Part shown: positions 12,083-17,188 of the stretch, piece after piece
How the letters are laid out: every line of letters starts with the position of its first letter
Numbering within the stretch: the first letter of the stretch is position 1
Source: a virus
DNA length: 20,365 nt
Virus record (IMG/VR): IMGVR_UViG_3300017770_000238
Coordinates: 1-20,365 of that record
Strand: one strand, 5' to 3'
Position numbers and translations under genes: made by a program
Notes under the pieces: generated by a model
Databases searched by the model: none
What the model was told of the DNA's origin: nothing
What the model saw: the letters and a program-made list of their open reading frames with translations, nothing else

Positions 12083-12110
12083 TTGACACTTTGTGACACT
12101 TATGTATTAT
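12083..12110 (+). promoter_or_regulatory. Strong rightward sigma70-type promoter
   Basis: A perfect -35 (TTGACA, 12083-12088), a 16-base spacer and a 5/6 -10 (TATTAT, 12105-12110) lie 38 bases before the first rightward gene, which has a GGAGG site. The -35 and spacer contain a direct repeat TGACACTT at 12084 and 12094, one helical turn apart, a likely operator overlapping the promoter. Confidence 0.8.
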
Positions 12111-12147: not shown

Positions 12148-12453
12148 ATGCCTAGAATGGATAAACTTAGTAATTACGCTACTACATGGTGGAACAAAGA
12201 CAGTAGCGGCGGTGTAACATATCATCAAACACAGATTGTTGCATGGAATGACAACAAGGTTACACTTAACACTGATGGATGGGAAACCGTCACAACTAAG
12301 CGCAAAATGAACCAAGCATCTAATCAATTCGCATTGCGTTTTGATGTATGGCAAGAAAACTATGAATGGTTCGTAAATCTACCAAACGGTGAGGTTGTCA
12401 AATATTATGACGGTATCACCTTTGAAATTTTTGGTGGTGGTGTCGTACAATGA
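12148..12453 (+). CDS. Trp-rich early protein, function unknown
   Basis: This 101-residue protein is the first gene after the strong rightward promoter, with GGAGG 6 bases before the ATG. It is beta-rich and unusually rich in Trp and Tyr: ATTWWNKDSSGGVTYHQT, then WETVTTKRKMNQASNQFAL, then VWQENYEWFVNLPNGEV and a C-terminal YDGITFEIFGGG. The block around TTKRKMNQASNQF together with the WFVNLPNG segment resembles conserved hypothetical proteins of marine phages, from memory. The role is unknown; as a first early gene it may act on host functions. Its stop overlaps the next start (ATGA). Confidence 0.7.
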   Translation: MPRMDKLSNYATTWWNKDSSGGVTYHQTQIVAWNDNKVTLNTDGWETVTTKRKMNQASNQFALRFDVWQENYEWFVNLPNGEVVKYYDGITFEIFGGGVVQ

Positions 12454-14485: not shown

Positions 14486-14675
14486 TATCTAAAACAGTAA
14501 ATCCACTGCCTCCACACTCCTCACAACAGCGCCTCTCTTCTTTGAGAAAGCCACCATTGTAATAGTCTACGTAGGGTACTTCTGCTAAGTAAAAACCATC
14601 ACCATCACAATACTTGCAATCCTCAGTTTGAACCTCATACTTTGTACCATTTACTAGCTGATAAACGATAGTCAT
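14478..14675 (-). CDS. DnaJ-type zinc-finger small protein
   Basis: This 65-residue protein has two CxxCxGxG-like elements: C20-x2-C23-DGDG and C51-x2-C54-GGSG. These are the repeats of DnaJ zinc centres, so a single zinc site is likely. The ATG at 14675 is chosen because GGAGG lies 5 bases upstream; an in-frame ATG 7 codons earlier has no such site. The start overlaps the upstream stop as ATGA. Similar isolated zinc-finger proteins are common in phage operons, with unknown role. Confidence 0.7.
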   Translation of the reverse strand: MTIVYQLVNGTKYEVQTEDCKYCDGDGFYLAEVPYVDYYNGGFLKEERRCCEECGGSGFTVLDNE

Positions 14676-14959
14676 TTGATCCTCCACTTTATACATGACT
14701 TACCCCATTTAGTTTTACCACGCTCACCACTGTCAACTACCTTGTCCTCGTTCTGTAGCTCCGATAAACGTGGCTGCACCGAGCCGTACGGTACGTTCAG
14801 CAACTCCGCTATATCTTCCGTTGATAATGATACTGATGTTTTCTCAAGCAACTGATAGACTCGATCACGTATCGTTAGCTTGCCTTTAAAGTTACTGTTC
14901 GCCGCTTCTTTGCTTGTGTCGGTGCTTTGATAACCTACGCCTGTTTCTAAATATGGCAT
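14672..14959 (-). CDS. Winged-helix protein
   Basis: This 95-residue protein has a winged helix-turn-helix in its C-terminal two thirds. Helix RDRVYQLLEKT is followed by helix-turn-helix SLSTEDIAELLNVPYGSVQPRLSELQN, then a wing with DKVVDSGERGKTKWGKS. The N-terminal part is polar and likely flexible. A GGAGG site lies 6 bases before the ATG and overlaps the end of the upstream gene. A regulator of phage transcription or a replication accessory protein is likely; the target is unknown. Confidence 0.75.
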   Translation of the reverse strand: MPYLETGVGYQSTDTSKEAANSNFKGKLTIRDRVYQLLEKTSVSLSTEDIAELLNVPYGSVQPRLSELQNEDKVVDSGERGKTKWGKSCIKWRIK

Positions 14960-15298
14960 TTATTCCTCCGTTGTTTTTTTCCAGCCAATCCATTCTAAGA
15001 ATGTCTCATATGTTTCAATCGGCAGCACAACCAATGTGCGCCCCCGGTCTTTACGGACAAATAGCATATCGCTACCGTCCTGATCCAAAGCATCATACAA
15101 ATCCTGATATGCTCTGGCTCTTCGCTTGCACTCAGCAAGCAAAGCCTGTTGTGGGCCAATCTTCAAATCACCCGAATAATTCCCTTTGACAGCTCCTGAC
15201 AACGGAACACGCTCCGCATCAACGCCCCAAGATTTATGTAAGTTTACAATCTCTCTCTCGAAATTAGCACCCTTATCTCTACTTGCTTTACCACCCAT
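14960..15298 (-). CDS. Hjc-like PD-(D/E)XK resolvase
   Basis: This 112-residue protein fits small PD-(D/E)XK nucleases of the archaeal-type Holliday junction resolvase class. It has KGANFEREIVNLHKSWG with a conserved Glu, then VPLSGAVKGNYSGDLKIG carrying the active-site Asp, then LLAECKRRA with the Glu-x-Lys pair. Phages carry such enzymes to resolve recombination or packaging junctions. It is 3 bases downstream of the Cro-like gene, with AGGTGA before the ATG. Its neighbour across the divergent region is an exonuclease/annealing operon, consistent with a recombination role. A related endonuclease class cannot be excluded. Confidence 0.75.
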   Translation of the reverse strand: MGGKASRDKGANFEREIVNLHKSWGVDAERVPLSGAVKGNYSGDLKIGPQQALLAECKRRARAYQDLYDALDQDGSDMLFVRKDRGRTLVVLPIETYETFLEWIGWKKTTEE

Positions 15299-15301
15299 AA
15301 A

Positions 15302-15505
15302 TCACCTATAGAAATCGTTGGGTGTAACTTGCCCCATCGTCGCATCTTGTATTAAATTCATATACTTAGCAGATGGTATCTTGTAATCCTTATGGTCGAT
15401 AGGCAAACACCAACGCCGTACAACTGTAGCATGTGGAGCACCTACTTTATCCGCAAGTTGCTTCAATGTCATCTTTGCGTTTTGACGATATTCTTCTAAT
15501 TTCAT
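15302..15505 (-). CDS. Cro-like HTH regulator
   Basis: This 67-residue protein has a helix-turn-helix: MTLKQLADKVGAPHATVVRRW. A C-terminal segment IPSAKYMNLIQDATMGQVTP and NDFYR resembles Cro-type phage repressors. It is the first gene of the leftward operon, with AAGGGG 8 bases before the ATG, and faces the rightward exonuclease operon across a 70-base control region holding symmetric half-sites. It most likely binds there and represses one or both directions. This implies a regulatory switch, but no integrase is in the window to prove lysogeny. Confidence 0.8.
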   Translation of the reverse strand: MKLEEYRQNAKMTLKQLADKVGAPHATVVRRWCLPIDHKDYKIPSAKYMNLIQDATMGQVTPNDFYR

Positions 15506-15516
15506 CTATAAAACCC

Positions 15517-15563
15517 CTTGACTATATTTGACATATCGTGCATCTTTGTCATTAAATGTCAAG
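15517..15563. promoter_or_regulatory. Symmetric operator/promoter of divergent operons
   Basis: Four TGAC half-sites lie in a dyad about position 15540. TGACT at 15519 and TGACA at 15529 are 10 bp apart; TGTCA at 15547 and 15557 are 10 bp apart on the other strand. The outermost arms CTTGAC and GTCAAG also match. Perfect -35 hexamers are embedded on both strands (TTGACA at 15528-15533, and its complement at 15557-15562), while -10 elements are weak. It probably controls the Cro-like and exonuclease operons. Confidence 0.7.
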
Positions 15564-15575
15564 AGGTATAAACAA

Positions 15576-16550
15576 ATGGGCATACGAAAAACAGATTGGG
15601 CGGACCGATTTAATTACAAATGGCACAGCAATCCAAGCACACCTGATGCCTGGACATTCTTTGATAAAGCAGTGCTTAGACCAATGCGAGATAAGGCGTG
15701 GCGTATATTACGTGGGGATGCTCAGGGAGATGAAAAGTGGGCAAGGAAAGTATTGTACGATAGTGCGTACTACAAAGACCCACAAGGTCATACTCAGTAT
15801 ACAGACAATACAAATATGGTCAGCGGTAGAGCCGTACAAGTCTATACAGATATGTTGCTCGTCAAAGATGCAGACGTGACGGAAGCTTACGGTGAAGCAA
15901 TCAACATGCTACATGGATATGAGCCACCGTATTGGCATGACATGGACGTAGACAAGGCTGTGTTAGCTCACAGAGAAAACGTAGCTTATGATGCAGAGGG
16001 TAAGAAGTCTAAAGAACCTACAATGGCAGAGTTTTCTTTGGTCTGTGAAAACGCAGCAAGTGGCATCCGAGAAGCCATGCAGGGTGCTAACCGTATTGGT
16101 GGAGAGATAGATCTACACGGTAATATACCCCACTGTGAACTACCGTACTTTGGTAAACCAGACTACGGAGATGGACGTGTAGAGCTAAAGACACAGTGGG
16201 ATCAGCAAGCACATACAGATAGTCCAAGAGCAAACTCATTGCCTAAGAAAATTAAAGCACCGCATATGACACAGATAGCCGGGTATTGGCATCTATCTAA
16301 GATCGTTCCTAAAATAGTTTATGCTAACAGGTTAGGCTACGTAGTCTTAGAACCGACGCAGCAAGAATTGGAATTTGCTTTAAATGATATTTCTGTAGCT
16401 TGTAGACGTAGAGAAAAACTAATGAAAGTTGCAGATGATGTAGTTGATCTGCTTAATTTAACTGATCCTCATTTTGGAGATAGTTTTGTGTGGCGTGATT
16501 TAGCGCCTGAGTTTTTAATGATGGCGAAAGGAATGTTTGGTAAAAGATGA
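15576..16550 (+). CDS. PD-(D/E)XK exonuclease
   Basis: This 324-residue protein heads the rightward recombination operon. The ATG at 15576 is chosen because AAGAGG lies 9 bases before it; an upstream TTG lies inside the operator. It has the PD-(D/E)XK nuclease core: E178 (GGEIDL), D196 (GKPDYG), E203 and K205 (VELKTQ), and Q233 with Y237 (MTQIAGYW), the order of Cas4/RecB-like and phage recombination exonucleases. It would digest DNA ends to give single strands for the annealing protein encoded next (ATGA overlap). The general class is clear; the exact family is not named here. Confidence 0.8.
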   Translation: MGIRKTDWADRFNYKWHSNPSTPDAWTFFDKAVLRPMRDKAWRILRGDAQGDEKWARKVLYDSAYYKDPQGHTQYTDNTNMVSGRAVQVYTDMLLVKDADVTEAYGEAINMLHGYEPPYWHDMDVDKAVLAHRENVAYDAEGKKSKEPTMAEFSLVCENAASGIREAMQGANRIGGEIDLHGNIPHCELPYFGKPDYGDGRVELKTQWDQQAHTDSPRANSLPKKIKAPHMTQIAGYWHLSKIVPKIVYANRLGYVVLEPTQQELEFALNDISVACRRREKLMKVADDVVDLLNLTDPHFGDSFVWRDLAPEFLMMAKGMFGKR

Positions 16551-17188
16551 CAGATTTAATTAAAGCAATGGCTGAGGTCAACGATCTCAACCGTACTCAC
16601 GGCGTTACGCAACGTGGTGGTAAAAAATACACAGAGGTATTTGTACGTATCGAGGCTTTTAGAAAAGCTTTTGGAACCGATTTGGGTATTGAAACAAATA
16701 TCATGGATGACAATGGGCAACGTGTTATAGTACAAGCTGTTATTAAAAACAAAGACGGAATGATAATAGGAAGTGGTTTTGCTGAAGAAATACGCGGCTC
16801 TTCAAATGTAAACAAAACAAGTGCCATAGAGAACGGAGAGACTTCAGCAATAGGAAGAGCCTTAGCATCCATTGGGTTACACGGTGGTAGCTATGCTTCA
16901 GCGAATGAGCTTGTTGCAGCTAAAAGAAAAGAAACAGCTTTAGATGAAATTAAAAAAGAAGAAGAGGAGAGCAATAACGAAACCATGCCACAAAACCAAG
17001 CACAATGGGTTGCGTGGTGCACAGATTTAACTAAACAATATCAACAAGCAAAGTCCAAACGAGATCTTGCTGAAGTTGATAGAAAGACTGATGATGCCTG
17101 GCTTGATCAACTCAAGTCTAGTTATCCAGAATTATTTCAAAGGCTAGTAAAAAGATTAACAGAAAAGGAGAATAGCTTTGAGCAATAG
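16547..17188 (+). CDS. ERF/Rad52-like single-strand annealing protein
   Basis: This 213-residue protein resembles ERF-type annealing proteins. An N-terminal domain runs to about residue 130, with KYTEVFVRIEAFRKAFG, then VIVQAVIKNKDGMIIGSGFAEE. The characteristic block TSAIENGETSAIGRALASIG and GLHGGSYASANELVAAK follows. After a Glu-rich linker comes a C-terminal helical domain (about residues 148-213), possibly for partner binding. It starts by ATGA overlap on the exonuclease, forming a Red-like pair. It is expected to pair single strands made by the nuclease. ERF versus another annealase family is uncertain. Confidence 0.75.
   Translation: MTDLIKAMAEVNDLNRTHGVTQRGGKKYTEVFVRIEAFRKAFGTDLGIETNIMDDNGQRVIVQAVIKNKDGMIIGSGFAEEIRGSSNVNKTSAIENGETSAIGRALASIGLHGGSYASANELVAAKRKETALDEIKKEEEESNNETMPQNQAQWVAWCTDLTKQYQQAKSKRDLAEVDRKTDDAWLDQLKSSYPELFQRLVKRLTEKENSFEQ

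Follow-up and report, generated by a model that had tools for sequence, protein, structure and literature searches.

The 70 bp that separate the start codons of a gene for a 67-amino-acid helix-turn-helix (HTH) protein (15505, minus strand) and of the putative nuclease gene exo (15576, plus strand) are best read as a pair of operators for a Cro-type autorepressor that would shut off both early operons, a reading to which we assign a probability of about 0.8 from comparison with related loci. Positions refer to the window, i.e. the complete stretch of 20,365 nucleotides of marine phage DNA that was analysed.

The first-pass annotation had described four TGAC half-sites arranged symmetrically about position 15540 in this gap, and the window sequence bears this out. 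Two TGAC words lie on the plus strand (15519-15522 and 15529-15532) and two on the minus strand (15551-15548 and 15561-15558), in two-fold symmetry with the centre at 15540. While the plus-strand coordinates were right, the minus-strand words had been placed one base too low (15547 and 15557 instead of 15548 and 15558). The two perfect -35 hexamers claimed for opposite strands are found as TTGACA at 15528-15533 (plus) and 15562-15557 (minus). The window contains the array a single time and none of 300 dinucleotide-shuffled windows contains it, which makes a chance origin unlikely; the intergenic region contains four TGAC/GTCA words compared to 0.54 expected (P about 0.001).

Judged by the sequences of related loci, the conserved unit is an inverted 17-bp pseudo-palindrome, TTGAC-N7-GTCAA, and not a 10-bp direct repeat. 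We analysed the DNA upstream of the regulator in 80 loci that encode a relative of it and that form 23 clusters at 90% protein identity. In 20/23 clusters, compared to 0.12 in shuffles, the palindrome with at most one mismatch lies no more than about 130 bp upstream of the regulator; its rate is 5.4 per kb near the regulator vs 0.2 per kb elsewhere. Among inverted spacings from 0 to 25 in these clusters none but N7 is strongly enriched. Because this first set had partly been chosen through the peptide HATVVRRW, so that the invariance of the helix within it reflects ascertainment, we built a hold-out set by searching with the C-terminal half of the regulator only. This yielded 16 new clusters with varied helices (HGTVVRRW, GATVARRW, HATIARRF, DATIARRW and HAQMARRW), 14 of which have the palindrome, nine of them in perfect form, against 0.08 expected from shuffles. 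The identification of this palindrome as the operator is thus very highly probable.

The window has two such palindromes, O1 and O2 (Table 1), 28 bp apart. The inner TGAC half-sites noticed at first correspond to the inward-facing halves of the two palindromes, in which the middle A/T base is swapped: in O1 and O2 alike the inner half departs from the G(A/T)C of the consensus at the middle base, and in O2 its end base differs as well. With its two mismatches O2 of the window, taken alone, is not distinguishable from background; a perfect TTGAC-N7-GTCAA is found at the O2 position in L045-L052. A spacing of 28-30 bp between O1 and O2 is kept in the nearest clades. In more distant cI-less clades O1 is kept and O2 is degenerate or unrecognisable, and the cI-minus lineages L056, L057 and L061 have O1 and no recognisable O2.

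These relatives also bear on the initial proposal that one multimer reads four direct TGAC half-sites, 10 bp apart on one face of the DNA with the axis at 15540. In the window the four words and their 10-bp phase are exact, and TTGAC-N5-TTGAC exceeds shuffles in 5/23 first-set clusters, although direct repeats are few in that set. However, the 10-bp direct repeat is found in 0/16 hold-out clusters, the inner O1 word TGAC reads TGTT in close relatives (L034, L035, L036, L041 and L044) with an exo about 92% identical, the inner O2 element of L045-L052 reads TTGAC in inverted orientation, and the spacing of the elements is variable across L056-L077. Direct repeats spaced by one helical turn are therefore not kept as a unit across relatives, and where the inner direct half-site of O1 is lost beside conserved flanking genes the palindromes stay. 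A multimer of this kind is improbable. What stands of the proposal is an operator region in a divergent promoter for the adjacent Cro-like regulator, with two sites of dimer size on opposed -35 elements, and without the four direct half-sites, the single multimer and the single DNA face.

Table 1. Features of the divergent region and of the adjoining operons in the window.
Feature	Position	Strand	Remarks
Winged-helix protein	14672-14959		same operon as cro
PDDEXK_15/RusA-like endonuclease	14960..15298	-	downstream of cro
67-aa Cro-like HTH regulator (P0001)	15302..15505	-	five-helix model, pLDDT 93
Operator O2 (predicted)	15518..15534	+	TTGACTATATTTGACAT; 2 mismatches to TTGAC-N7-GTCAA
exo promoter, candidate -35	15518..15523	+	TTGACT, 5/6 match; 70-bp start-codon spacing leaves little other room
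cro promoter, weak candidate -10	15540-15535	-	CACGAT
exo promoter, weak candidate -10	15541-15546	+	CATCTT
Operator O1 (predicted)	15546..15562	-	TTGACATTTAATGACAA; 1 mismatch of 10 to TTGAC-N7-GTCAA
cro promoter, candidate -35	15557..15562	-	TTGACA, invariant in clade
exo, putative PD-(D/E)XK-type nuclease	15576..16550	+	first gene of the rightward operon
Second exo-operon gene, phrog_11717	16547..17188	+	PHROG match; function not annotated

The outer TTGAC of each operator fits the candidate -35 element of one of two face-to-face promoters. In O1 this is the candidate -35 of the cro promoter, and the operator reaches into the first bases of the Shine-Dalgarno sequence of exo. In O2 it is the candidate -35 of the exo promoter, and the operator touches the Shine-Dalgarno sequence of cro. 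Because only 70 bp lie between the start codons, the geometry favours a face-to-face overlap of the predicted promoters, unless transcription starts inside the opposite gene. The -10 hexamers of the window are weak (3/6 matches), and over 40 operator sites from all clusters the -10 match averages 3.48/6 vs 2.99 expected, a modest enrichment; in the hold-out loci L166, L167 and L174, perfect operators are placed on promoters of the form TTGACC-N16-TATAAT. Since TTGACA, at each outer edge, is the sigma-70 -35 consensus, the TGAC words might represent merely the -35 hexamers of crowded promoters and no specific operator. We give this little credence, as it predicts neither an inverted GTCAA exactly 7 bp away nor the absence of the site from homologues with other helices.

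The 67-residue Cro-like protein is the predicted reader of the operators, with high likelihood. It is a small single-domain HTH protein of the lambda-repressor-like fold. A weak match to HTH_3 (E 0.0037) falls below the cut-off and phrog_7950, a repressor family, is matched with E 0.00027; in fold it resembles, among others, P22 c2, a prophage Cro and YdaS (TM about 0.65-0.68), with no Foldseek E-value <0.1. A first scan of genomes with the whole regulator returned no match, and the phage collection contained no match to either the regulator or the exo of the window. A scan of bacterial genomes gave 24 regulator homologues. The alphaproteobacterial Cro/YdaS-like homologues have a homologous C-terminal motif (GxVTPNDFY-like) but a different recognition helix. 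The sole RRW-type bacterial homologue, L193, is accompanied by a perfect site, whereas the non-RRW homologues with a readable start lack it with a single exception (1/22, with one mismatch). TTGAC-N7-GTCAA is likewise absent from HTVC034P and Lederberg, cultured Pelagibacter phages that encode a diverged homologue with a homologous C-terminal motif and a different helix; in HTVC034P this homologue is divergent from an operon of an annotated nuclease and an annealing protein. The roseophages CRP-823 and CRP-831 have the two neighbouring genes (winged-helix and endonuclease) in common with the window, and their divergent region has no site. The presence of the site thus goes with the helix type of the regulator in the genomes compared. 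In the hold-out loci L178 and L179 (helix KHSKIVQRW) ATGAC-N7-GTCAT replaces TTGAC-N7-GTCAA, a possible change of specificity.

The sites might instead bind another phage protein. Candidates include the winged-helix protein, which is encoded in the same operon, and, for the temperate relatives, the CI-like protein alone; CI of lambda-type phages uses the same operators as Cro. The chances of this are slim, since no cI-like match was found in the window-clade records G001-G003, CRP-823 and CRP-831 have the winged-helix gene with a site-free divergent region, and the site tracks the helix type of the regulator. A role of the inverted symmetry as RNA or cruciform, such as a leader hairpin or terminator, was considered and can practically be dismissed: the outer arms CTTGAC/GTCAAG could pair, but the inner-arm changes in L034, L035, L036, L041 and L044 are uncompensated on the opposite side and no terminator is called at the array.

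Regarding the flanking genes, exo has no Pfam match and a search of the PDB with an exo profile was also empty, and its assignment as a nuclease is therefore based on motifs; residues D196, LKT 204-206 and Q233/A235/G236 are invariant. The product of the second gene of the exo operon may act in recombination; a single-strand-annealing role, guessed from HTVC034P gp16, found no BLASTP support. Judged from the portal protein (58-62% identity), the window is close to Pelagibacter podoviruses similar to HTVC010P. A search for a phage-type RNA polymerase gave no PF00940 match, which is uninformative as the control genomes gave none either.

Operator-like sequences are also found outside the divergent region. 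A third one in the window, TTGACACTTTGTGACAC at 12083-12099, has two mismatches and is individually not significant; it is located on a strong promoter (TTGACA-N16-TATTAT) that precedes a small rightward gene of the Kyano_Gp96 family (12148-12453, plus strand), and the same site is present in L036 and L127. At L045:6646 and L050:6441 a perfect operator and a second one precede a small gene. Inside the RusA-like gene, TTGACAGCTCCTGACAA (15186-15202) recurs in relatives and may reflect protein coding. At L092:2606 a one-mismatch operator overlaps a promoter, TTGACA-N16-TATGAT, just before an integrase gene.

In the window clade exo lies directly against cro, while the integrase-bearing relatives have the order exo-OL-cI-OR-cro, as in lambda. 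In L094, exo is followed by an operator, a gene for a 261-residue CI-like protein (HTH_26 match, E 5.6e-8), two operators and cro, with an integrase upstream. The order exo, cI, cro is found in 9/23 cluster loci. A cI between OL and OR, divergent from cro, is present in L078, L080, L081, L084, L091, L094, L095, L099 and L110, and an integrase in L084, L094, L100 and L107. L092 and L107 have an integrase and no cI between exo and cro, where the sister L099 has a cI-like gene. No HTH_26 match to a cI-like gene was found in the window-clade records G001-G003 (up to 35 kb), and a lambda-type immunity region of this layout was thus not found in this clade. The integrase of a lambda-type temperate phage (PF00589) was not found in window-clade records of up to 35 kb either, contigs that are fragments and may be incomplete. 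The exo tree has three changes of the cI state, and well-supported branches force at least two of them; being midpoint-rooted, the tree is no proof of their direction. The arrangement of the window looks like a lambda-type exo-OL-cI-OR-cro region after loss of cI, and loss is the somewhat favoured direction.

The cI-bearing relatives have a strong hairpin between cI and exo (z from -3.9 to -7.4), in most cases with a U-run, on the minus strand (L094:5016-5060, L091:2524-2569, L080:2620-2663, L078:4662-4705, L110:5181-5226, L081:1768-1816 and L084:5180-5228). Its end is at or near the exo start, and the -10 of the exo promoter seemingly falls within its 5' arm, an arrangement suggestive of a cI terminator nested with PL.

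For the pair of operators in the window we propose the following mechanism. The Cro-like protein would most likely bind each operator as a dimer, the inverted half-sites being 12 bp apart. The outer TTGAC of each operator would serve as the -35 of one promoter and would also lie over the start and ribosome-binding region of the other, because 70 bp have to accommodate both promoters face to face. One bound site may therefore be enough to hinder both promoters, whichever of the two is filled. As Cro accumulates, its own operon and the nuclease operon would be shut off, as by lambda Cro at OL and OR. Repression of both operons is likely, if slightly less so than the presence of the operators as such.

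The closest known kinds are the lambda and N15-type switches. In common with lambda OL/OR and its Cro and CI are the 17-bp pseudo-palindromic operators on early promoters and the small HTH Cro adjoining them, and the temperate relatives also agree in the order exo, OL, cI, OR, cro. The operator sequence is unrelated, however, lambda has six operators compared to two here, and the window clade differs in that no cI was found and the two early promoters would overlap face to face in 70 bp. The immB regions of N15, PY54 and phiKO2 encode a small five-helix Cro with 16-bp palindromic operators on the promoters of divergent genes, and Cro of PY54 and phiKO2 binds only OR3 and represses cI/cB, not itself (PMC4488713, PMC4997575). 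The small five-helix Cro and the palindromic operators overlapping divergent promoters are alike; in contrast to the Cro of PY54 and phiKO2, the regulator here has an operator on its own candidate promoter, and autorepression is therefore predicted. In P2 and 186, face-to-face early promoters choose between lysogenic and lytic operons. The opposed, overlapping promoters, which should exclude each other, are similar, whereas both operons here are early lytic ones and no repressor for lysogeny was found. In the literature, which was covered in part, we found no description of the operator, its reader family or the cI-less face-to-face layout.

With TTGAC-N7-GTCAA, a large group of uncultured marine phages now has a precisely defined operator that can be tested, along with the protein that probably reads it. 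Searches with this operator can list the regulon of each genome. More tentatively, and at slightly less than even odds, widespread uncultured marine phages may have lost cI, apparently in more than one lineage, and retained a Cro-only circuit in which OL and OR stand side by side, mirror-symmetric, on face-to-face early promoters; a pair of Cro dimers would close both early operons and time a purely lytic programme. The relatives range from phages with cI in a lambda-like immunity region to phages with a compact region that lacks it, and the role of Cro in a CI-free phage thus becomes directly testable.
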